64,000 nt of DNA, from positions 206,378,715 to 206,442,714 of the forward strand of contig CM037877.1 of assembly GCA_021292165.1 (NCBI GenBank), given 5' to 3'. The notes below the pieces were generated by a model. It saw only the letters and a program-made list of their open reading frames with translations, ran no database searches and was not told the origin of the DNA. Source of the stretch: Shinisaurus crocodilurus. Lineage: Eukaryota; Chordata; Lepidosauria; Squamata; Shinisauridae. Positions 5,009 to 63,929 of this stretch are shown one piece after another (the first letter of the stretch is position 1; each line of letters opens with the position of its first letter). The position numbers and the translations under genes are program-made.

Positions 5009-5604
5009 TCAAAGCATCTCTGACAGATGTCTGTCCAGCTGCACCTTGAATGCCTCCAGAGTGGGAGAGCCCACAACCTCCCTAGGTAGTTGATTCCATT
5101 GTCTTATTGCTCTGACAGTCAGGAAATTTTTCCTGATGTTTAGGTGGAATCTAGGTTCCTGTAACTTGAACCCATTATTCCGTGTCCTGCAAACTGGGAT
5201 GATCGAGAAGAGATCTTTGCCCTCCTCTGTGTGACATCCCTTCAAATACTGGAAGAGTACGATCATATCTCCCCTCAGTCTCCTCTTCCGAAGGCTAAAC
5301 ATGCCCAGTTCTTTCAGTCTCTCCTCATAGGGCCTTGTTTCCAGTCCCTTTATCATCCTTGTTGCCCTCCTCTGAACCCTCTCCAGTTTGTCTATGTCCT
5401 TCTTAAAGTGAGGTGCCCAGAACTGGACGCAGTACTCAAGATGAGGCCTAACCAGTGCCGAGTAAAGGGGAATTATCACTTCCCGCGATTTGGAAGCTAT
5501 ACTTCTATTAATACAGCCCAAAATTGCATTTGCCTTCTTTGCAGCCACATCGCATTGCTGGCTCATATTCAGTTTGTGATCTACCACAATGTCTTTATCT
5601 AGTG
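5009..5604 (-). pseudogene. CR1 reverse transcriptase C-terminal fragment
   Basis: Roughly 200 codons without a stop correspond to the thumb and C-terminal region of the CR1 ORF2 protein. The catalytic FADD box and endonuclease are upstream in an intact element and are absent here because of 5' truncation. Recognised by 'NAILGCINR', 'RPHLEYCVQFW' and 'LERVQRRATRM'. The protein start seen in the longest open frame is inside the inserted MITE and is not a real start. Confidence 0.85.
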
Positions 5605-5739
5605 CAGTGTTCTCCAACCTTGGATCCCCAGATGTTTTTGGCCTACAACTCCCAGCATGCCCCAGCCAGCAATGCTGACTGGGACATGCTGGGAGTTGTA
5701 GGCCAAAAACATCTGGGGACCCAAGGTTGAAGAACACTG
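5605..5739. mobile_element. Fold-back hAT MITE, copy 1 (TSD ATCTAGTG)
   Basis: A near-perfect palindrome starting 'cagtgttctccaacc' and ending 'agaacactg', flanked on both sides by ATCTAGTG (5597-5604 and 5740-5747). An 8-bp duplication plus CAGTG ends is the signature of hAT transposition. It carries no coding capacity, so it must have been moved in trans by a hAT transposase. Inserted into CR1, so younger than that CR1 copy. The centre contains a second short palindrome around 'gccagcaatgctgac'. Confidence 0.93.
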
Positions 5740-6033
5740 ATCTAGTGATACCAACGCATGTGGGGATCTTTCTTCAAAATCATATGTGAGAACTTATTCT
5801 TGCTCCAGAGATGCCCTAGCGACTAAGCTGATTTTTTCTTGGACACAGTGTTCTTCTTACCAGTTGCAAATTGGCAAACGAAGCAATGCTATATAGATCA
5901 GAAGTGCTAGGTAGAGCACTTACACTCATGCAGCCAACTCTCAGCATCCAAAGGAGAAAGTTGGATTTTCCCAAGAGTTTAGCTCCTCTGTCTCCATAAT
6001 TCTGAGCTCCACTGAAAATCTGGCCCCAGCTGA

Positions 6034-6080
6034 TATAAGACCAGCTGTTCACCAGAATATAAGACCAGCTGTTCACCAGA
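6034..6080 (+). repeat. Two-unit ~24-bp tandem duplication
   Basis: 'ataagaccagctgttcacca' occurs twice in immediate succession. Confidence 0.85.
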
Positions 6081-6151
6081 AACCCATATGCTTGGACATT
6101 TGGTCCAGAGGGACTGGCAAGAGTAGAGAGAACACTGCCAGGCGACAGATA

Positions 6152-7352
6152 GGCCGGGTTTGCACATCACTTTAAGCTCACATAGGCTCTGGGGCTGTCA
6201 GAGGCTCATTACCTTCGCTCAGCCTTACTGCTACTCAGCTGAATTGCTGGCCCGCCGAGCAAGGGCAACAAGTCCCATGGCGCTGTGTTTCCTCAAGAGG
6301 AATTGGAGAGCCACGGGGCTCGTCCCTGGCCCTTTCTCGGCGTGGCCACCACTCAGCTCAGCAGTGCCTGCACCAAGAAACGTTGCTCCCCCCAGCTCGC
6401 CCCCCTGCACTCACTTGTTGCAGTGCCCGCGGGTGCTGAAACAAGCAGGGACGGGGGGGTCAGCCGGGCGGCGGAGAGGGGGATTGGGTGTGCGCTGTCT
6501 TGGAAAGACAGTGTGCGGTCAACGCCACTTGCCGCTGCCGCAGCAGCACAAAAGTCAATCCTCCCGCCCTCTAGGACTAGCGAGGCCACTCGCTAGTCCT
6601 GGAGGGCACAGGGACTGATTCTCCCCACCTTTGCTGGGTGTGGCACCCATGGGCACCCCACCCAGCGAGAAAAGGGGGGGCAAGCAGGGGTCTGCCACGT
6701 GCATCCCCTCCCCAATCCCTGAGCAGGGATTGGGGAGAAGGCGGCGCTGCTGCCCTTTTGCCCAAAAGGACAGTGGCGGCAGCGGGATCCAGCCATCCAT
6801 GCCTCACATGGGCGCAAGAAAGGGCAGGCGGCATTGGGGGATCTGGGTGCCCAACCTCGTTTGCTCTTGAGAGCAAGCGAGGCCAGGGGCCTGGATTCTC
6901 CGCTGCAGTCCTTTGGGGCTTCCCCCCACTCCACACTCTGGCTGGCGCTGGGAGAGCGGGATTGCTAGCGAGCAATCCCACTCTCCCGGCATCTGCAAGA
7001 TTGCAGGGGGAAGCTGATGACACTGACAGCTGCACCAAGTGCCGCTTGGGCACTTGGACAGCTGTCATTGGCCAGAGCCCCTTGGTTAGTGCGGCAGCCC
7101 TTTTTTGCCGCTCTTGCCAAGGGGCTCTGTGCCTTTTTCGGCTTGTAAGTGAGTTAGCATGTCGTCCAAGTTCGGACAACATGCTAACCCTACTAGGGTT
7201 TTCTTAACCCTAAAACAAGCCATGGCTTAGCAGGGTGCTTAAGGAGACTCTCCTTAACTACCCTAACTAACCCTTCCCGGGTTCGGACAACATGGTAAGC
7301 CTCAGTAGGTTTATTCCTAAAGTGGCCTAGCGTGTTGTTTAAACCCAGTCAA
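6152..7352. mobile_element. Probable large fold-back element built of serial hairpins
   Basis: The left part begins 'gccgggtttgcacatcac' and the right end, reverse-complemented, begins 'gactgggtttaaacaacac', which looks like a degenerate terminal inverted repeat. The interior is GC-rich and holds a chain of short inverted repeats with small loops: 6566-6584/6589-6607, 6634-6667, 6710-6737, 6746-6778, 6854-6882, 6945-6985, 7027-7070, 7075-7130 and 7150-7185. The long open frames here (up to 201 codons, both strands) are artefacts of the composition. The end motif resembles other fold-back elements in this window (9853, 58620). No clean target duplication was found, so the limits and class are inferred. 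Confidence 0.5.
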
Positions 7353-7814
7353 AGACTGACAACCCGTCCTAGGCCATTAAAGAGTGCCAACCAAATCACA
7401 ATACAAATGATGACATTTCAACACAGAGGTCACACCTGTGTAAGGATTTTGCATGATTCCCTCAAAAAGCATGCACATATGATGTCAATGTCATGTGTCA
7501 TGATACTGCACACAAGTAATTAATTACATGCGTGTGTGGGAAGTCACTTTGGTTCTGGCTTCCCAAGACACGTACATTACATTGTGTAGAGTAAGTTACA
7601 TCTTTGTAGAATTGTGACACATTCTACAAAGATCTGCTCAGGAATGGTGCAGAAATGAATTCCATGTGGGAAATTCATCATGTGTGGGGTGATTCTGAGA
7701 GAGGTTGCGTGTGCAGCAATGCACTGATGGCCTAGGGCCCATTAACATGCCTGTTGTTGGTTTTCAGACTTTTGTGGAATGCGATTGCCCAGGACTGGCT
7801 TCGAGCATCTAAAC

Positions 7815-7917
7815 CAGTGTTCTCCAACCTTGGGTCCCCAGATGCTTTTGGCCTGGCTGGGGAATGCTGGGAGTTGTAGGCCAAAAACATCTGGGGACCC
7901 AAGGTTGGAGAACACTG
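7815..7917. mobile_element. Fold-back hAT MITE, copy 2 (TSD RTCTAAAC)
   Basis: Same termini as the copy at 5605. Flanks are ATCTAAAC (7807-7814) and GTCTAAAC (7918-7925), 7 of 8 identical. The central palindrome is shorter and partly one-sided, leaving 103 bp. Confidence 0.92.
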
Positions 7918-8019
7918 GTCTAAACAAACAAAGGACACCAGTGAGGGAAATGTTATCATCTTCATTTCCCAGGCAGGCCGGTGAGATTGCAGACAGTCTT
8001 GTTTAAATAATGACTGTGC

Positions 8020-9690
8020 TCCCGTATAAAAAACAATGATAATAAATGATACCTCCTCTTTACCCACTCTCACCCCTCCCCTGCCCCCCAAAACCTTGGG
8101 TGGCTACCCTACTTCAGTTTCATTTACATCAATTCTCACAGAAGTGCTGTCCAACCTTTGCGGTGTCTGGAGCTGGTTTTCTTTTTCACACCAAATGGGC
8201 AGCATCAGTTTACTGGTCTGAAAGCTGGCACTGCCACTGCGAAATGGCTGGCAGGTCTTTCCTACCTTTAATCCTTGAGTATGCTCAATCTCCCAATCTA
8301 CAGACATGTGCATGAACGCGCATGCATCTATCTATATATTGGAGGCCAATAGCACCATTTCATGAATTAAAAGCTAGCTAGTTTGCTCACATTTCCAAAG
8401 GAGCTGTAAGAACCCCAATGGCCTTGACTTCATTAAATTCCACCCCTGCCATTGCCATAGTCAAACTCCATCACTGGATGCCCAGCTGGACCCAGCTGCA
8501 TGGGTATGGGTGAACACACAGCCTCTGTATTGGCAGTGATGTGCCAACCTAGAATTCCAGACCTGCCTGGATAATATAGCAGTTGGTGGCTCTAATGTTT
8601 TCCCCTTGGAACCTGTAATGCACTGCAGGGAATAGTATGGCGCCCGGGCAGGAGGAGATGAAGTTGACATACCCTCCAACTGTACCAATTTCATCGAGGC
8701 TTGAAAATTACCAATTTGCCTAGTTGCCAATGGCAAGTAAGAAAGAGGCTGATTTCACACAGGCATTTTCAGTGATCACATGGGGTTCAGCTTCTTCCCC
8801 TGCTTCCTCCCATGCACAACGTGTGCGTCTGGCCCTGTACAGGATGCCTGAGCACAGGCCTTTTTCGCCCTTAGGGCAATGATGTAGCACAGCCAGAGCT
8901 CCCAGGGCAGAGCCCCTGCACTTTTTCATTAGCAGGGATGCTGATGTCATCTGTCTCCCCTACCCCCAGAGACTTCCAGGTTCCCTCTGAGCTTAGTTAC
9001 AATCTTCACAGTATCTGGGGGCGGGGGGGGGGGAGAATGAATTTCCCCAGCAACAATATTCTGTTCCCTCTTGTAATGCAAAGTATTTTGGGGTGGCTTG
9101 GTCTTGATGAGCATTTAATAAGATCCATTCGCTTTACAAAAGGCCTGCGCCTGGTGGAGAGAAAACTACTAGAACTGGTTTGTTGATACTGAATCAACAC
9201 AGCTGCCTGAATGTTTGGACTCTCCTTGGGCGTGGCTATGAGAACTGTCAGGAGCAGTGTCTGCACTTCAAAATTTACCACCTTAGGAAATGCTGTAGGC
9301 GACTGAGGAGTTCGTTCTGAGGAGTTTGGGGGAGAGCCTGAGGAGATTCTGAGTGACCAGAGTTAAAGACTGGAGAGAGGACAGAGAGACAGAGATTACA
9401 GATAGGAAGGGAGTGAAAAGGAACCATTCCAGAGAAAATGGTGGTGGAGAGAGCCATCGCCACCCAACTTCTGCCCTCACGCAGCAATTCCACCACCAGG
9501 GTGCATGACAAAGCTTCATCTGTTCTACTACACTTTGAACCTAGTTCCTATAGTTCCCTCCAAGACAGGAGGTTGCTGGTAGGGAAAGCTGGATTGCATG
9601 TTTTTTTAAAAAAATATCGCCACACTCCCTCTGGTTGGTGTGGGGGAAGGAGTTCCCACATGTTCCTACCCTGGATGTTAGCCCATGTTG
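8020..9690. other. Unassigned sequence
   Basis: No family could be assigned over about 1.7 kb. A G-run lies at 9018-9031. Open frames of 60-90 codons occur on both strands with no domain resemblance. Confidence 0.4.
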
Positions 9691-9704
9691 CCCTTCAACT
9701 AGAC

Positions 9705-9800
9705 CAGTGTTCTCCAACCTTGGGTCCCCAGTTGTTTTTGGCCTACAACTCCCAGCATGTAGGCCAAAAACATCTGGGGACCCAAGGTTAGAGAACACTG
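9705..9800. mobile_element. Fold-back hAT MITE, copy 3 (perfect TSD AACTAGAC)
   Basis: Ends 'cagtgttctccaacc' and 'gagaacactg', with identical AACTAGAC on both sides (9697-9704, 9801-9808). At 96 bp the centre is reduced to 'cccagcatg'. Confidence 0.94.
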
Positions 9801-9852
9801 AACTAGACTCACAGATGCCATTCCATCATAACAAGGCTGGCAATCTGACTAT

Positions 9853-10149
9853 GGCTGAGTTCACACATAACACAACAAGCCACAATATGGGTTGAATTTG
9901 GGTTGTCATTGAAGCATGGGTTGTTGTGTTGTGTGAACCCAGCTGTGCTAACAAACCATGGATTGTTAACTGAATAACCCACAAAGAGAACCCATGGTTT
10001 GTTGTTGGGTTGTGAGCTTTGCGTTGTTTGTGGTTAACAAACCATGGTTTGATGGCGCAGCTGGATTCACACAACATAACAACCGATGGTTCAACGACAA
10101 CCCACATTCAACCCATACTCTGGCTTGTCACATTGTATGAACCTGGTCA
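9853..10149. mobile_element. Long fold-back MITE with ~130-bp arms
   Basis: The left arm starts 'ggctgagttcacacataac' and the right arm, reverse-complemented, starts 'gaccaggttcatacaatg'. The arms stay alignable to the centre, sharing 'tatgggttgaat', 'gggttgtc', 'gttgtgtgaa', 'ccagctg' and 'aaaccatgg'. Each arm itself carries smaller inverted motifs (accatggttt). No coding region. The palindromic design is typical of non-autonomous DNA transposons. I could not settle a target duplication. Confidence 0.75.
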
Positions 10150-10825
10150 GTGTTTAAACCCCCCTTTCTGCTTTATTTGCCATTCCACTCCTATTCTCCC
10201 CCACCCCCCTGGGGTTTCTGATGGAATTGACAAGGTTGTGAGGAAAGCCTGTCAGCTTCACCAGAATAAGTTGTTCCTTTAAAAGGGTATGCCTAGACAC
10301 CAGTGCTGGTGTATATACATAGTAATGTTTTTAAATAATAATTTAAAACCTTTCACTAGAGAAAGTGGAAGGATGAAAAAGATTACCATGCTGCTATGTC
10401 ACTTCAGACAGAAGCATCTCATCACAGGGGACTGGGGGAAAAAAAAGAGAGGGGGCATTTGAAATGTGATTTTAAATACACCGTCCTACATAGCTAGTAT
10501 CAATCAATTAGGGCCAAACTAAACATGATAAATGTATCTTTGCATCTAATGTGCAGGTATTTAAACATGCAAATTGTATCAGCTGGTGGGCAGGGCTGAT
10601 AATTAACAGGATCAGAGCAGGTGTGGAGATGGAATTGGTGCCAATGTTTCATTCTCCCCCAGCAAATACCCAGCTTCAAAAGGGGGATTTTCCTCAGGAC
10701 AACAGCAGGTTAGGAAAGGGTTAAATTCCCTCTCCGCACGGGCTTGGGTTCATTATCAGCTCCCCCAACTCAGCAGATACAATTTTCAGTTTTAAAAACG
10801 TGCACCTTAGATGCAAAGACACATT
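10150..10825. other. Unassigned sequence
   Basis: Mostly AT-rich, with a short A-run near 10440. No repeat end or exon recognised. Confidence 0.35.
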
Positions 10826-10827
10826 TA

Positions 10828-10925
10828 GGCTACAATCCTGTACACACTTACCTAGGACTAGGAGTAAGCCCACTTGAGAATAATGGGACTTACTTGTGAG
10901 TAGACCTGTATAATCCGATTGCACT
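10828..10925. repeat. Short interspersed repeat, 'caatcctgtacacacttac' type
   Basis: A squamate-style unit with 'acaatcctgtacacactta', 'ggagtaagcccacttgag' and 'aatgggacttactt'. It is self-complementary in part (aagccc/gggactt). Related pieces in this window lie at 24389, 36078, 46752, 50320, 52109, 56959 and 62552. Probably a MITE; class not proven. Confidence 0.6.
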
Positions 10926-11204
10926 GATTATGTCAAGCATAGTTTGGCCCCTAGAAAACCTGATAAAAGTACCTTTAAACCTGCGCACCAGCAACGGGAG
11001 AGGGATGCTCAGAAGCTCATATGAATTTGGTCTTACTCTCGGGCAACCAGAGAATGGAACTTTGTTTGCAGAAGCTGGATCTCTCCACCCCAACCCCACT
11101 TCCTTTTAGACCACACATGACAAGTATAGGTATATAGAAACAGGTAGGCTAGTAAAGTTTTTTATGAGGTAATAGGCTTTTGTGGACCTATTTATTTGTA
11201 AGTC

Positions 11205-11435
11205 CGATTTAGTGTTCTTTCAGAGGAGGCTTTTATTGTGCAATCGCTCTGCCTCATTCACAAAATTTTACAGGGGGCGAAACAACTTCATCTTCCATTT
11301 GTAAACCTCCGGTGTTTTCCCACCTCTTCTTCCTTCGTTTTTCTTTCCACAAAAATTCTGTTAAGGAGGAAAAGGTGGAATAGGTGCACAAATGTCCTAT
11401 TGGTTGTCATAGGAGCCCTTAGCTGGTACACGAGT
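11205..11435. mobile_element. Harbinger-like MITE, decayed copy
   Basis: Shares with 15412, 26090, 41457 and 50706 the order 'gaggcttttattgtgcaatcg', 'cacaaaattttacaggggg', 'tcttccatttgtaa', 'ggtgttttcccacc', 'ttaaggaggaaaaggtggaa' and 'ttggttgtcataggagccct'. Left terminal sequence is degenerate. Confidence 0.65.
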
Positions 11436-11878
11436 GAATTTTACTGGATTCCTAAATTGCTATGATTTGTATCAAATTTTCCCCTTGGCTGCTGTAGTTC
11501 AATAAGGAGATTGGTTACAAACCTCTAATTGGCCAGAAATATGTGGCTTGAAATTAACTTGCTAATTAACCTACCAGCCTCCATTCCAGCAGGCTGCAGA
11601 GCTGAAGGAGAGCAGAGAAGCAGGGCTATTCTATTGCCTCTGCTGAGAGACCAGCTGCCTCTGACGCTCGCTGACCTGCAGCACCTAGTGCAGTGCTGGC
11701 TCCAGGTTTCTGAGAGCCCTTGGGCAAGAAGACACCCTCAACTGGCCCCTCCCAGGATGTCTACTTTGCTTTCTCACCGCCATTGTCACCATCTGCTATT
11801 GCTCCTCATCCTCTTTCTCAGCATTGCTGCCACTTGCTTGCTTGAGAGCGCAAGTAGAGAGCCAGTGAGCAAGTCGGC

Positions 11879-12046
11879 CTGTGGCTCACGCTGGCTCAGC
11901 TGGTCTGAGCATGGAAAGCTAAGCAGGGTCAGGCCTGGTTATTACTTGGATGGGAGACCCCTCCTCTAGTTTCCTGCATTGAGCAGGGGGTTGGACTCGA
12001 TAGCCTTGTAGGCCCCTTCCAACTCTATCATCTATGAAACCTATGA
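11879..12046 (+). mobile_element. 5S rRNA-derived SINE with a CR1-type tail, copy 1
   Basis: The head matches the 3' two-thirds of vertebrate 5S rRNA, including the internal pol III promoter: 'ggaaagctaagcagggtcag' (A-box region), then 'cctggttattacttggatgg' and 'gagacc' (C-box region). Directly after 'gggagacc' it changes to 'cctcctctagtttcctgcat' and then to the sense 3' end of CR1 ('gggttggactcgatagcctt', 'ccccttccaactctat'), finishing in 'tctatgaaacctatgag'. This is the SINE3-like design: transcription from the 5S promoter and a tail recognised by a CR1 reverse transcriptase. The same junction recurs at 55507. Confidence 0.88.
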
Positions 12047-12207
12047 GATCTCCTGCTCCTCCTCACCGCCACCGTTGTCTGGGCCAGAGAGGCAGGTGAA
12101 CAAGCAGGCTGCACTGGTGAAAAGGAGGAGTAAGTTCAAGGGGCTTTTGTCAGTGGGACCCTGCTGGATTGTGGGTCCTCAGCAGTTGCCCAACCATGCC
12201 TACCAGG

Positions 12208-12407
12208 GGAGACTGGTGACTCCTATGTCAGTGGGGCTCCTCATCCATTACAGCTTTTATTCTGAGCTTTATAGGAGCTATCTATGGTGCTCCATGGTGG
12301 TGAACCTTTGGGGGGATGGAGTACAGCACCATGGATAGCTCCTATAAAGCTCAGAATAAAAGCTGCAATGGATGAGGAGCCCCACTGACACAAGAGTCAC
12401 CAGCCTC
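12208..12407. mobile_element. Fold-back element with ~85-bp arms
   Basis: The left arm (12208-12291, 'ggagactggtgactcc') and right arm (12323-12407) are inverted copies at roughly 94% identity by eye, with a ~31-bp loop. 'cagcttttattctgagcttt' and its reverse complement are intact in both. No coding capacity. Confidence 0.8.
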
Positions 12408-12524
12408 CACTGCCTACCCTTGGTGAAGGCCCAAACCTAGCAGCAGCCATTCCAACAGGCTACCCGAAGTGTTTCCATCCCAGCTAGTCATTATAAAGAA
12501 CTGTAACTTCAAGAACAAGTGCCA

Positions 12525-12652
12525 GGGTTTTCTCTTCCCCCCCCCTCCTCCCCCTTTCCTTGTGTGTCATGTCTTTTAGATTGTAATCCTGAGGGCAGGG
12601 ACTACTGATATTTGGCTAAATGGCAGGGTAAAAATGTTTTAAATGATAAATA
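12525..12652 (+). mobile_element. LINE/SINE 3' tail (L2-like)
   Basis: 'cttgtgtgtcatgtctttta' then 'gattgtaatcctgagggcag' followed by a degraded tail matches the 3' end also seen at 22280-22433, where it ends in (AAAT)n. This is a 3'-end-only retroposed fragment. Confidence 0.55.
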
Positions 12653-12754
12653 CTGTTCACTAAGAAAGAAAGTGGATAACCTCCTTCTCGTGTGTTTCGT
12701 GCTGTTGTGATATGGGCAAGGCAAGCTATCCCTGCTGAATTGTATTCAATAGAG

Positions 12755-12838
12755 CAGTGTTCTCCAACCTTGGGTTCCCAGCGTAGCTGGGAGTTGTAGG
12801 CCAAAAAACATCTGGGGACCCAAGGTTGGAGAACACTG
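12755..12838. mobile_element. Fold-back hAT MITE, copy 4 (perfect TSD CAATAGAG)
   Basis: The shortest family member at 84 bp, with identical flanks CAATAGAG at 12747-12754 and 12839-12846. The left arm has lost the 'gatgtttttggcctacaa' segment, which the right arm keeps, so the hairpin is asymmetric. Confidence 0.93.
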
Positions 12839-13479
12839 CAATAGAGCATAGCATAGCACCCTCCGAACTCTTTTAGGGATGGCACCTCCTCCCATTCATG
12901 ACTGGCTCAAAGACAGTATTTGGGACTTTGGCTTTGGGTGTCCAGTGTCCATTTGTCTGTACATTCCTGGTCCAGTAGCAAGCTGTTCCTTCGTTGGGGC
13001 TATTTCTCTTCTTTTGCTTAGCACCATGAACCATTTGTCTGAGTGAAGTGTGTGTGGAGGGAGGGTAATTTTTAAACGAAAGGTCTCATATTATTACTGG
13101 CTGGGTAAACCAAGTGTTGTGTTTTCCTTTGTTTGGAACATTGGAGCAAAACATGTTTTTCCGCCTCAGGCTTCTACCATGGCGTGTTTACACAGACACA
13201 CTGTTCTGCATTTGGACTATATTTTGGGCCTCCCTGTTTTTATACCCCAGGTTTCTGGTCACTGGTTCTGCAGTTAGCAAGGGCCTCCTTTCCCCATCAA
13301 TTCCTTTTTCCAGTCATGGCCAAGCCTAACAAGGGAGTAGAGCGGAGGGTCTCTTATTCCGGAGAGCGCCACATTCCAGGCCCACCACCATGAGCCTTTT
13401 CCAGGAGGCATTGCGATGGTGGGGAGCAAAGGGGTTTGCGCTGGCTGTGGGATACTAACTCTGTAAATCTAGCAAAGGC

Positions 13480-24388: not shown

Positions 24389-24476
24389 ATGCAATCCTAT
24401 GCCCGCTGACTCAGAAGTAAATCCCAACAAGTTCAATGAAGCTTACTGCCATGTAGGTGGGTATAGGATTGCAGCT
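24389..24476. repeat. 'caatcctatgca' interspersed repeat
   Basis: 'gcaatcctatgcccgctgac', 'tcagaagtaaatccc', and inverted 'gtataggattgcagc' at the right end, giving a weak hairpin. Confidence 0.6.
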
Positions 24477-36991: not shown

Positions 36992-38615
36992 TTGAATTTT
37001 GGAACATGGAATATACGGACATTGCTGGACAACATAGATAGTGAACGCCCTGAGCGTAGGACTGCTATTATTGCAAGGGAGCTGAAACGGTTTAAAATTG
37101 ACATAGCAGCACTTCAAGAAACTCAAAGGGCAGGAGAGGGACAATTGAAGGAAGAAAAATGGAGGTTATACCTTCTTCTGGAAAGGACTACCTGAGCAGG
37201 ACCGACGAATACATGGAGTAGGCTTTGCCATCAAAAATGAACTAGTGAACTCTTTGTTAGAAGTTCCTACTGGCATCAACGAACGCCTAATAACTCTTCG
37301 ATTAAAGCTCGCCAATAACCAGCAGGTAACCATTTTGAGCACTTATGCGCCAACATTAGATGCTGATGATGACATCAAGGAAAGTTTTTATACCCAGTTG
37401 GACACTCTCCTGTCAGAGATACCTAAGGAGGATAAAATGATCCTCCTGGGCGATTTTAATGCAAGAGTCGGGCGTGAATTTAATTTATGGCCAGAAACTA
37501 TTGGAAAAGACGGAGTTGGTAACAGCAACCCAAACGGACTCTTACTTTTGTCTACATGTGCAGAGCATAATCTCACTATTACAAACACGCTCTTTCGACA
37601 AAAGAATAAGTTTAAAACATCATGGCAGCACCCACGGTCAAAGCACTGGCATCTTCTGGATTATGTAATTGTCCGTGTTAGAGAACGCCGCGATGTACTT
37701 CTTACTAGGGCCATGGTGAGTGCCGACGACTGCTGGACAGACCACCGACTAATCCGGTCCACAATGGTTATCAACATTGCTCCCCAATGTAGGCTTCAAG
37801 GAAGGAAACCAAGGCGTAAAATGAACATCAACGCCCTTCAAGATCCTATTAATCAAACTCGACTTCAATCACTTCTTAAGGAACATCTACCTACAGAACC
37901 TCCTGACAACATTGAGGACCATTGGTCTAAGCTGAAAACCTCCATTACTGTAGCTTGTGAACAAACTATTGGATATGAAACTAAGAAACATCAGGATTGG
38001 TTTGATAAAAATGATAATGAGATTAAATATATAATTGACAAAAAAAGGAAAGCCTTCCAAATATGGCAAAATGATATTAACTGCACTGCCAAGAAAAAAA
38101 TCTACGCTAGCGCAAAGGCTGAGGTCCAAAGAAGAACAAGAGAACTTAAGAACGCTTGGTGGAAAAAGAAAGCTGAAGAAATTCAACAACTTGCAGAATC
38201 TCATGATGCACGGGGCTTTTTTAAGGCCACAAGGGCCATTTATGGACCAAAAACCTATGTTACAAACCCTTTACAATCAAAAGATGGCACCAAACTCTTA
38301 AAAGACAAAGAGTCTATTGCACTGCGTTGGAAAGAGCATTATTATGACCTTTTAAATCGTAAATCTAAGGTGGATAAAGAGATTTTCTCGCAAATCCCAC
38401 AAAAACAAATTAGAGAGGAACTTGCAATACTCCCCAATCTGGATGAAGTAAAAAAAGCCATTAATCAAATGAAGAACAACAAAGCTAGTGGACCAGATGG
38501 GATTCCTGCTGAAATCTTTAAAGAAGGGCCCCCCGAACTTGTACAACATCTTCATAAACTCATCGAAAAAATCTGGATAAGAGAAGAGATCCAGAAGACT
38601 TCAGGGATGCCATAA
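36992..38615 (+). pseudogene. LINE endonuclease and RT N-terminus, frameshifted
   Basis: An initial frame starting at 36992 reads 'FGTWNIRTLLDN', 'RRTAIIARELKRFKIDIAAL' and 'QETQ', the first motifs of AP-endonuclease-like domains (GTWNIRTL, ALQET). After a frameshift near 37160 the frame continues to 38615 with 'LLGDFNARVG' (catalytic D/N region, ~37446), 'HWHLLDYVIV' and 'WTDHRLI' (catalytic DH pair, ~37735). A charged linker follows, then the RT entry motif 'NNKASGPDGIPAEIF' (~38476). Near 38592 one C is missing compared with the frame that resumes downstream, ending this part early. All visible endonuclease motifs are present. Confidence 0.88.
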
Positions 38616-39367
38616 TTATCACCCTCTTTAAGAAGGGTGATAGAACAGACTGTGGAAACTATCGGGGCATTTCTCTCTTAGCTACCGCAGGTAAAATATT
38701 TGCTAGGATTCTCGCAAACCGTCTTCTATCTATTTCAGAAGAGATCCTCCCTGAAACTCAATATGGTTTCCGCCCCTCTAGAGAGACAGTAGACATGATT
38801 TGTACTGCACGTCAGCTCCAAGAAAAATGCCGGGAGCAAAATCAACCCCTTTATATGGCATTTATTGATCTGGCTAAGGTCTTTGATACTGTAGACCGTA
38901 CAGCTCTCTGGACTATCCTTACAAAAATTGGATGCCCCAATAAATTTGTGAATATCCTGCGACTTCTCCATGACAACATGATGGCAACGGTTTTGGACAA
39001 CAACGGCTCTCATGGTGCTCCATTTAAAGTGGGATCAGGTGTTAAACAGGGATGTGTTATCACCCCAACATTATTTGCTATTTTCATCGCCATGATTTTA
39101 CATCTTGTCGAGGGGAAACTTCCCACTGGTGTGGGAATTATATATCGAACTGATGGAAAGCTTTTTAATCTCACCAGGCTGAAAGCAAAAAGTAAGGTAA
39201 TTACAACCTCCGTTGTGGAACTTCAGTATGCTGATGATAATGTGGTCTCCGCACATTCAGAGGATGATCTCCAAACTATCCTAAATGCTTTTGCAGAAGC
39301 ATACGGAAAACTTGGTCTCTCACTTAACATCAAAAACCAAAGTGCTTCATCAGCAAGTGCAAGCTAA
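38593..39367 (+). pseudogene. LINE reverse transcriptase core fragment
   Basis: Contains RT motifs in order: 'FKKGDRTDCGNYRGISLL' (~38625), 'QYGFRPSRETVDMI' (~38760), 'AFIDLAKVFDTVDR' with the first catalytic aspartate (~38860), 'GVKQGCVITPTLFAIF' (~39040) and the catalytic 'YADD' box (39227-39238). The frame is actually open from about 38593; the first methionine at 38795 is not a real start. It stops at 39365 because two A residues are missing from a run (five A's here, seven in the 51033 copy). Confidence 0.88.
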
Positions 39368-43962: not shown

Positions 43963-44160
43963 GGGGAAGGGCCATAGCTCAATGGTAGAGCCCCTGCTTT
44001 GCATGCAGAAGGTCCCAGGTTCAATCCCCGGCATCTCCAGGTAGCGCTAGGAAGGAATGCTGCCTGAAACCCCGGAGAGACAGTGCCAGTCAGTGTTGAC
44101 AATACTGGGTTACATGGACCAATGGTCTGACTTAGTATAAGGCAGCTTCCTATGTCCTAT
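43963..44160 (+). mobile_element. tRNA-derived SINE (second family)
   Basis: The head reads 'ggggaagggccatagctcaa' then 'tggtagagcccctgc' (box A and D-arm region) and 'ggttcaatccc' (box B). This is followed by 'ggcatctccaggtag', a body with 'ctgaaaccccggagagacag', and the 3' part 'ggtctgacttagtataaggc' and 'agcttcctatgtcc'. The tail piece recurs alone at 50117. Different head and tail from the SINE at 24071. The tRNA-like part is followed directly by SINE body, so it is not a tRNA gene. Confidence 0.88.
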
Positions 44161-61128: not shown

Positions 61129-61136
61129 ACTGAAAG
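61129..61136 (+). repeat. Target-site duplication ACTGAAAG, left
   Basis: Identical to 63922-63929; together they frame the hAT element. Confidence 0.95.
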
Positions 61137-61969
61137 CAGGGCCGGATTAAGATAGGGGCTATTGGAGCTGCAGCTCCAGGCCCCTACCCCAAAATAGGCC
61201 CACAATATAGGGACGCGCGGCGCCGGAGAAATGAGGACGTCACCTCGCTCACCTGCGGGGCGTTGCCGGACACGGCGCCGGTGCAAAGCAGGGTGGCACG
61301 ATGCAGCAGGGCAGCGCCTGAACCGGGGCGACACCACTTCGCCGGCAGAGAGGCCTCGGAGAAGCGGCGCCTGCAGCGGCAGCCCAGAAGGACGCGGGCC
61401 TGCAGGAAGCACCTCCTGCCCTGCCCTGCCCTGCCCTGCCGCCGCCGCCGCCGCCGCGCGCTTGGCCAGGCGGGCCCAGTCCTCAGCGGCTCCTCCGGAG
61501 AATGCCGCCGAGCGCCGCGGAGCCAGGGCGCGATCGAGCAGTCCGGCCCGCCTGGAACTGTGGCGTCGGCGTCCGGGGGGCTCCTTCCTTCCATGCAGAC
61601 CCCTGCAGGGGTGGGCGGGCAGGCGGGCAGCGGCGGCATCAGCCTCCCTGCATCTGGGCGGGGCCCGGCTGGTGGGAGGGCGCCCTTGGAGCAGCCGGCC
61701 ACTCTCCGGGTGGGGAAGCCGGTTCTGCTGCGCAGGCAAGGGAGCCGGCAAGGGAGCCGGGGTGTGTGTGTGCATGTGTGTGTGCGTGTGCACTGGACGC
61801 CCCCGTGGCCCCAGGCATGCTGCTGGTCGCCCGGAGCGGGGCTGACGGTTCTGCAGCGGCGCGGAGGGCCCCACAAGCAGAGGCGGGGGGCTCTTGCCGG
61901 AGCTCTCTCAAGCCAGCGGGAGGCGGCTGGGCTCCCCCTTACCCACTGCCAGCCCCCCCTTACCTTGCC

Positions 61970-62175
61970 TTAGAACTCCCAGAGGCACTCGCGGGTCACC
62001 TCCTTGCTGTCGGCCACGAGGGGCCCCTCCCAGTCCCCACGCAGATAGTTCCCATTGGGGCCCAGGACGGCCAGCAGGTTGTTCCCTCTGATCTCCAGGC
62101 AGAAATTCAAGGCAAACTTGCCCCAGGTCTTGAAGGTCCTCTCGGAAGTCAGAGACCAAAAGCTCTTGCCGCGGC
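61970..62175 (-). pseudogene. FSCN3: Captured terminal exon of fascin-3
   Basis: On the minus strand a pyrimidine-rich tract ends in 'cctccccccag' at 62176, followed by a phase-1 exon of 67 codons and TAA at 61970-61972. The translation includes 'KSFWSLTSERTFKTWGKFAL', 'NFCLEI', 'LLAVLGPNGNYLRGDWEG' and the end 'VTRECLWEF'. This is the last part of a fascin beta-trefoil: FSCN1 ends similarly in '...SLWEY', and the human FSCN3 end that I recall has 'PWGKFALNFC', 'LLTVLAPNGFY' and 'ITRECIWEF', a closer match. The FSCN1 last exon also begins just before the GKYW equivalent, fitting the splice site here. No frameshift or stop is present. Fascins bundle actin; FSCN3 is testis-enriched in mammals. 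Only one exon is here, antisense to the transposase, so it cannot make a fascin. Identification is from memory, not from a search. Confidence 0.85.
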
Positions 62176-62260
62176 CTGGGGGGAGGAAGGAAGGGAGGAA
62201 GGGAGGAGGAAAGAAAAGGAACCCAGCTGGTGGCTGCCCTCTCACCCGTCACCTGGCCTG
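62176..62260 (-). other. Intron piece with acceptor (FSCN3 last intron)
   Basis: Minus strand: 'gccag|gtgacgggtgagag' at about 62260, then a CT-rich tract (TTCCTCCCTTCC units) and AG at 62176. If the GT is used, the intron would be about 85 nt. The frame upstream has the right length to continue the protein, but I see no convincing similarity, so only the acceptor side is supported. Confidence 0.5.
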
Positions 62261-62551
62261 TGGCCGACACTCTGCTCAGGAAGGGACAGCGGCACCCGCG
62301 GGAAACGCCGCGGAGCGGCACGGCGGCGGCGTGGGGGGGATCATCCCAGCCTGGACACCGCGATTCAGAAATCCAGTTTCACTGCCAGGTGATGCCTCTT
62401 CTTCCGATACTGCTCCCCAGTGTGGATATGAAAACCCATAAAAAGCTGCACATCATGGCTCAACACACTGAAGGCGAAGGAAGATTGCTTTGTTCTTCAG
62501 AAATAAAGCCAGTCTGGGCCGATTGTCTCAATTGATATTGACTGAGAGTGC

Positions 62552-62640
62552 AACCCTATACATGCTACTCAGAAGTAAGTCCCATTCAGTTCAGGGAAGC
62601 GTATATAATGTAGGATATGCAGCCTAAAACTCATGTGATT
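62552..62640. repeat. 'caatcctatgca' repeat nested in the hAT element
   Basis: 'gagtgcaaccctatacatgc' followed by 'tactcagaagtaagtcccat' and 'tatgcagcct'. Lies inside the outer target duplication, so it either jumped in later or travelled with the cargo. Confidence 0.7.
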
Positions 62641-62884
62641 ACTCTTATTACATTACAGCAATTTTGTATTGAATGGATGGTCAGCAGACAGACAATCTGC
62701 ATTTTGTGGTTACCTGGATGGTGAAGAGGCAACACCTGCACATTTCCATATGTCCACCATCATGGGGCTGCCTTTGGTTTGGGGGGGGCTGCTCCATCAG
62801 CACTCCCAGGGGTGTCATGCTGCTGCCCCACTTTTGCTTCACTGCCCCATCTGTTTGGGTTATTTATTTATTTATTGTGTTTAT

Positions 62885-63424
62885 ACCAATTCTGACCAAT
62901 TGACAGAATCACTGAGGCACAGGCAAGCAGCATACAATATAATTCAAGAAAGATTTGGATTTCTATCAGAAATATGCACTCTAGCAGCTGATAGTCTACG
63001 TTCCAGAGCCACTACACTAGTGTCAAAATATCCTGAAGATCTTGAACCCCTGTTTGCAGACGAAATTGTACAGTTTTCATCTATTTTCAAAATGTACCAA
63101 TCTTCCACTGCAAATCAAGACATTCATGGGAGTCAAGAAACACAAATGTACAAGTTTATGATTGCACAATCTCTAGTCGGTGCATTTCCAAATACATTTG
63201 TGACCCTCCGCATGTATTTGTGTTTAATGGTCAGCAACTGCAGTGGTGAGCGTTCATTTTCAGCATTAAAACGTGTGAAAAATGAACTAAGGTCTTCCAT
63301 GGGTCAGGAGCGTTTAAATGCGCTCTCTCTGTTGTGCATTGAAAATGGTTTGCTGAACGAGCTTAATCTTGATTCTACAATTGAGGAATTTGCAACTAAA
63401 AAAGCAAGAAAAGTTAATGTGTAA
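62885..63424 (+). pseudogene. hAT transposase C-terminal fragment
   Basis: About 179 codons ending at a stop at 63424. The last half is a hAT C-terminal dimerisation domain: 'CSGERSFSALKRVKNELRSS' then 'MGQERLNALSLLCIENGLL'. The upstream part ('HRQAAYNIIQERFGFLSEI', 'EIVQFSSIFKMY') resembles the region before it in Tip100/ZMYM-type hAT proteins. The frame is open further upstream to 62669, but that segment ('MNGWSADRQSAFCGYLDGEE...') does not look like transposase, and the junction falls near an ATTT run at 62861-62875. Zinc finger and RNase-H catalytic aspartates are missing. The fragment has no stop or frameshift, so it is young. Confidence 0.88.
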
Positions 63425-63575
63425 TTTTATTTTAATCTACCAGCTTGATTCATTTAGTTTAAATGCAGGTTAGAGTTCAGTGAATAACCTGTTTGTGTGT
63501 TTAAAACTAGTGGTTGCTATTTATTTCAAGAGTTACTCTCTGCACCATAATCATAACGCAGGCTGTATTGATTAT

Positions 63576-63622
63576 GATGCAATAATAATAATAATAATAT
63601 ATTATATTATATTATATATTTA
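63576..63622. repeat. (AAT)n / (ATT)n run in the hAT 3' flank
   Basis: Six AAT units followed by ATATT repeats. Confidence 0.85.
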
Positions 63623-63921
63623 AGGAACAAATTTTTATGAGCCAAACATCATACACTTATATTTAAATTGTTTATATGCTTTATGTTTATTTAAAAATGG
63701 TTGTTGTGAATGTTCTATTTATAACGGTTTTATTGAGTTAACAAGCTTATTGTTTACAAAATAAGAAATATTTTCAATATGTTTCTGTTTTGGCACTTTA
63801 ATGGTAATTAAAATATTTAATTTGTTTTAATATAAAATTGCGTCTTCATTTTATTTATTTCCATAAAAAGGCTCACCAAAATCCTCAGCACCAGGCCCAT
63901 AATGCTCTTAATCCGGCCCTG

Positions 63922-63929
63922 ACTGAAAG
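63922..63929 (+). repeat. Target-site duplication ACTGAAAG, right
   Basis: Right-hand partner of 61129-61136. Confidence 0.95.

Follow-up and report, generated by a model that had tools for sequence, protein, structure and literature searches.

Gene-capturing Pack-TIR transposons of animals have been surveyed across 100 genomes, 81 of them from vertebrates (Tan et al. 2021, PMC8277862). That survey reported 370 Pack-TIRs in 55 of the 100 species, 208 of them hAT elements, with a median cargo of 224 bp (13.4% exonic), four multicopy cases of any type (three in frog and one in alligator) and a preference for GC in the multicopy cases; the proportion quoted there for rice, in which multicopy Pack cases are commoner than in animals, is 36% (481/1337). 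The closest known systems to the one described below are the western clawed frog Pack-hAT hAT-N8_XT, which carries the 5'UTR of CAPSL in a cargo of 291 bp, and the alligator case (PMC8277862). Plant Pack-TYPE and Pack-MULE elements are also non-autonomous and capture and shuffle host coding DNA, with plants as their hosts (PMC8903248).

We analysed a 64 000-nucleotide stretch of the Shinisaurus crocodilurus genome (hereafter the window) in which a non-autonomous hAT element of 2,785 bp carries a piece of the fascin gene FSCN3. The element is almost certainly a multicopy Pack-hAT that arose by one capture of FSCN3 DNA and then spread. It shares with the frog and alligator Pack-hATs its hAT ends, a host cargo of known donor, copies with different target duplications, a distant donor, GC-richness of the cargo and a short common sequence at a junction (PMC8277862). 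Its cargo of 1,669 bp is much longer than the animal median of 224 bp and the frog cargo (PMC8277862). Further differences are that a terminal coding exon is included whole, together with its splice acceptor, that there are six copies and that full-length parents could be found. Because animal Pack-hATs are already reported in PMC8277862, this is a new case of a known kind, the animal multicopy Pack-TIR, with a long exon-bearing cargo and six copies. The preliminary description of this locus had called Pack-type elements rare in vertebrates; with 208 hAT cases in 100 animal genomes the type is less exotic than that, and the rarity holds for the four multicopy cases (PMC8277862). Among more distant systems, Ssk-FB4 of Drosophila is likewise multicopy, with a common chimeric structure, distinct duplications and a template-switching model, but it took up nearly a whole gene that is expressed and under positive selection, whereas here a single exon without sign of selection was captured (PMC8277862). 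Turmoil-1 of C. elegans is an animal transposon with gene pieces too, captured into its inverted repeats (PMC2572040), and bat Helitrons carry gene pieces as members of another transposon class (PMC4778049). No FSCN3-carrying transposon was among the literature matches listed, from a search with most subscription journals outside its coverage.

Table 1. Features of the element and its target site in window coordinates
Feature	Position	Strand	Basis
Target site duplication, left copy, ACTGAAAG	61129..61136		letters and inverted-pair scan
Left end of parent hAT, 87 bp, including 16-bp TIR 61137-61152	61137..61223	+	98.9% over 87 bp to L010 bases 1-87
Left-junction filler, 46 bp, in all six copies	61224..61269		six-copy alignment; no convincing source match
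Captured FSCN3 piece, from the 3' flank through the last exon into the last intron	61270..62887	-	single blastn alignment with donor L033 3458-5006
Last coding exon of FSCN3, complete, 67 whole codons and stop	61970..62175	-	open frame, protein matches, donor alignment
Splice acceptor CAG, preceded by pyrimidine tract	62176..62178	-	letters
Junction filler AATTC, 5 bp	62888..62892		alignments to parents and donor
Right 1,029 bp of parent hAT	62893..63921	+	98.6-98.7% to six parents; 35 right-end-only matches at 98-99%
hAT transposase fragment, C-terminal and containing the dimerisation region	62894..63424	+	PF05699
Right 16-bp TIR	63906..63921	-	complementary to left TIR
Target site duplication, right copy, ACTGAAAG	63922..63929		letters

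The limits of the element were read from its ends (Table 1). The terminal inverted repeats (TIRs) are complementary at 16 of 16 positions and the same 8-bp sequence stands unchanged directly outside both, as had been claimed for the perfect TIRs and the perfect duplication alike. When inverted pairs of 12-mers up to 8 kb apart were collected over the whole window, with overlapping words counted separately, a perfect 8-bp duplication on the outer sides was found for 1 of 658 pairs, which marks the ends of the element, and a scan with 10-mers, counted in the same way, again returned these ends alone from 1,892 pairs. Since this is the sole inverted pair in the window with a perfect 8-bp duplication, the ends are no chance pairing. 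An imperfect palindrome follows the left TIR in subterminal position. The 8-bp duplication, the short TIRs and a PF05699 fragment restricted to the transposase C-terminus (E = 4.7e-9) are those of the hAT superfamily, and the fragment was correctly described earlier as antisense to the exon. The earlier recognition of a cargo also stood, although the range of 61200-62370 proposed for searches was too short, the insert between the two hAT parts running to 62892.

On the minus strand the cargo contains a terminal coding exon of 206 bp with an open frame ending in TAA, complete from acceptor to stop as first reported. Among 29 full-length protein candidates, 22 matched the exon at E <= 10 and all 22 carried a fascin Pfam domain; their names were fascin-3 (14), 'Fascin' (5) or uncharacterised (3), and they came from squamates, the tuatara, a marsupial and an alligator, with the best matches in Rhineura (87%) and Elgaria (88%). 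The expectation that FSCN3 would outrank FSCN1 and FSCN2 was borne out in that the best matches are fascin-3 and the donor exon lies inside a multi-exon FSCN3 gene; none of the 22 names was fascin-1 or fascin-2, in a candidate set that depended on exact shared 5-residue words, so both may have gone unscored. Fascin chains in the PDB matched the exon weakly (E = 0.0024-0.0029), and the Pfam Fascin profile scored 17.8 bits on it, below the curated cut-off of 23.1 (E = 0.0039). When the 22 fascin proteins were mapped on the window, the exon was found at E = 1.8e-24 or better and the next match at E = 0.24. The window thus holds the last exon of FSCN3 and none of the others, and is not an all-exon copy of the gene.

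Using Elgaria fascin-3 as query against the window's own 2.19-Gb assembly, we located a single multi-exon FSCN3 gene on the minus strand of contig C4 (295,159,621-295,170,034) with its exons in order, which is the one intron-bearing donor locus that the preliminary description had anticipated. The captured piece matches one contiguous stretch there (C4:295158957-295160505; 89.8% identity counting gaps), and its length of 1,618 bp against 1,549 bp in the donor gives a ratio of 1.04, inside the Pack-TIR range of 80-120%. The window copy is 98.1% identical to the donor in the exon and 96.2% in the intron end, and the six copies of the hybrid averaged 95.6% (4.0-5.3% different in aligned columns) in a comparison restricted to 61270-62887, which leaves out the non-homologous left filler. 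A second source for the GC-rich and CpG-rich block at 61224-61960 was considered and rejected from 61270 on, where the block is collinear with the 3' flank of the donor. The block contains neither AATAAA nor ATTAAA, and the first such hexamer of the donor lies 716 bp past the stop, just outside the captured part. No Pfam match was obtained for eight ORFs in the GC-rich part of the element.

The transposon part was traced by a DNA search in which 40 of 3,425 candidates were scored; five matched at full length and 35 at the right end only, one of these starting at 62898 and the others at 62893. We fetched 11 of the 35 right-end loci, and all 11 contained the full length of the parent L010 (3,276 bp, itself included) without the foreign interior, defining a family of about 3.2 kb. 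Perfect 8-bp duplications were present at nine of these 11 parents; of the other two, the first lies next to a GA/TC repeat and the second has no adjacent match. Relative to L010, the Pack element has kept bases 1-87 and everything from base 2251 onward, with the interior replaced. The longest stop-free frames in six parents were 301-415 codons. The transposase alignments of many relatives begin exactly at 62894, though the relatives themselves continue upstream; a splice site at 62893 was weighed as the cause of this sharp start and rejected, as the six parents continue there with the expected coding bases. The mean right-end difference was 0.55% for the six parents and 1.45% among the Pack copies, a comparison that is biased because the parents were drawn from the top of the match list, so that 0.55% may overstate the uniformity of the family. 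These right-end divergences do not show that Pack copies and parents spread simultaneously.

At the right junction, donor sequence ending in TTTATACC is followed by the AATTC filler and then by transposon sequence TGACCAATTG. Donor and transposon both have the bases ACC where the switch occurs, and the direct repeat ACCAATT spans the breakpoint (62885-62891 and 62895-62901). This order fits a switch into the transposon followed by a short false start and re-priming, three shared bases being weak when taken alone. At the left junction the 46-bp filler separates transposon and donor DNA in all six copies; no source for it was found in the six parents, and the 25.5-kb donor region gave only exact words of at most 11 bases (best E = 0.056). 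On its reverse strand the filler looks like the end of an exon with the splice donor CAG/GTGAGC, so that a third gene may have contributed it.

The same outer ends around one donor stretch would equally be expected if two hAT copies had flanked the donor exon and moved together as a composite, without template switching. The surroundings of the donor argue against this: under low-complexity filtering none of the six parents matched within the 25.5 kb that surround it, and the exact 15-base hAT end was absent from the same region. With the filter off, 12 and 54 short matches appeared in two of the three donor pieces, and the six listed for each lay in the parent's simple repeat. The donor of a Pack-TIR should have no transposons flanking it within 100 bp; the search for such flanking elements covered the parent hAT family and exact hAT ends, and neither was matched. 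Moreover, all that is left of the hAT on the left side of the hybrid is 87 bp, after which comes foreign filler. Allowing that an old excision may have cleared the donor, we consider composite transposition improbable.

Full-length copies of the hybrid were found at six loci on five contigs, namely in the window, on C5, twice on C1, on C14 and on C3. They were collected from the DNA search described above and from a protein search in which 32 of 32 candidates were scored, so that six is possibly a lower bound. The genome yielded 16 fascin matches, and all six of the last-exon matches outside the gene itself proved to be full-length hybrids. Both breakpoints are identical in all six copies, which argues for one capture followed by transposition. 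Five of the six have a target duplication of their own, four of them perfect and one at 7/8 (ACTGAAAG; ACAAGGTG; ACTGAGAT/ACTGGGAT, 7/8; CCCCTCTA; CAGCCCTC), and in one of these five, L004, the last right-end bases have changed. Separate duplications (5/6) together with common breakpoints (6/6) are what characterises multicopy Pack-TIRs. The preliminary description had predicted dispersed copies with the same cargo and individual duplications, and had inferred capture by the transposon with subsequent movement as one unit; the copies agree with both.

The sixth copy, on C3 (L034 3491-6235, C3:107012990-107015734), has no adjoining 8-bp duplication; ACCCTCCT follows its right end and ACCCTCCC, a 7/8 match, lies 28 bp outside its left end. 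Such a copy would suit a single hybrid locus that was multiplied by segmental or ectopic duplication instead of transposition, a course made highly improbable by the other five copies, each of which has its own target duplication and lies between unrelated flanks (18-48% identity in 22 columns to either side). Judged from the window alone, with its single fascin exon near the right edge, the real FSCN3 gene might lie here, its last exon flanked by two hAT fragments by chance. That reading is refuted by the multi-exon gene on C4, which has no parent hAT near it, and by the same hybrid at five other loci; mis-assembly at the FSCN3 locus, raised earlier as a possible objection, is excluded because the donor is separate and the copies sit on other contigs. 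A processed, RNA-derived exon inside the transposon, for which no supporting point was found, is refuted as well, since the intron end, acceptor and genomic 3' flank are all kept in collinearity with the donor, so that it is not an intronless retrocopy and the intron end marks a copy made at the DNA level.

For the Pack-hAT reading, the structure matches the template-switch-then-transpose model set out in PMC8277862, and the order of steps may be proposed as follows. In an ancestor of this reptile, parent bases 88-2250 would have been lost from the interior of a hAT copy of about 3.2 kb. DNA synthesis filling the gap would have changed its template to the FSCN3 locus, where it would have copied about 1.6 kb of genomic sequence, including the intron end, before returning to the transposon at a short common sequence. 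Because both transposon ends survived, the hybrid could then have been mobilised in trans by the transposase of its relatives in the parent family, in a burst of which at least six copies remain.

We then compared the copies with each other and with the donor. Outside CpG sites the cargo differs on average by 1.47% between the six copies and by 2.55% from the donor. Of the alignment columns that vary, 112 have a change in a single copy only and 20 are common to two to five copies, a star-like pattern that points to a burst and not to a chain; a further 33 set all six copies apart from the donor alike, and three have changed in all six but differently. The C3 copy has a 10-bp frameshift in the exon. 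In the five in-frame copies, 12 non-synonymous and 9 synonymous steps were counted in the exon, at 154 and 47 sites, respectively. All five depart from the donor at one synonymous position, where the change may have been in the donor; leaving this position out gives 12 to 4, which is near the ratio of sites. Within these small counts the exon has no sign of selection, and it looks like passenger DNA evolving roughly neutrally. Amino-acid decay was tried as a further clue and was uninformative, since the window exon deviates at three near-invariant sites and 23 other FSCN3 sequences deviate at 0 to 5. A38G and Y42N are the donor's own residues, and only R48W (CGG to TGG) and E57K (GAG to AAG after a C) are new in the window copy; both are CpG transitions and private to this copy among the five in frame. 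Of the changes confined to a single copy, CpG transitions account for 58 of 114 in the cargo and, in five copies, for 6 of 34 in the transposon part, an excess in the cargo that would be expected for CpG-rich DNA that became methylated.

Several other sequences were observed in the window. Pfam searches of 20 other ORFs of the window gave matches for two only, both parts of a LINE-like element; this non-LTR retrotransposon fragment (37245-39367) has endonuclease and reverse transcriptase domains in adjacent ORFs. A tRNA-like sequence at 43968-44039 was detected by Rfam (37.6 bits) and not by ARAGORN, and is perhaps the head of a SINE. A short dispersed repeat occurs at 62549-62603, inside the captured FSCN3 intron part, and at 24390-24445 and 10882-10912. 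Several inverted copies of short common words lie within about 7 kb at around 5600-12850, where the 700 bp from 6311 on are rich in GC (0.65). PAX and ARF sequences used as probes on the window gave nothing convincing (best E = 0.063), and megablast against a phage collection gave no match.

On C7 the parent hAT family has a short derivative of 673 bp (L009 1389-2061, C7:4844188-4844860) with a perfect CCTCCTAG duplication. Its interior comprises 563 bp of non-parent DNA at 69% GC, and is partly a dispersed repeat, as diverged relatives of it occur in the flanks of L015 and L004; the derivative is possibly a second capture. That the family is a habitual packer which repeatedly takes up and disperses GC-rich host DNA in this reptile, a vertebrate counterpart of Pack-MULEs with a transposase source perhaps still active, is a tentative idea that we think rather unlikely to hold.

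In automatic annotation, the copies may pass for fascin-3 fragments. With the donor, full-length parents, both breakpoints to the base and six dispersed copies, most of what a study of capture needs is available at these loci. In them the uptake of host DNA by hAT elements, the reason for the GC-richness of the cargo and the possible splicing of a mobile last exon with its acceptor into host genes can be addressed in a vertebrate.
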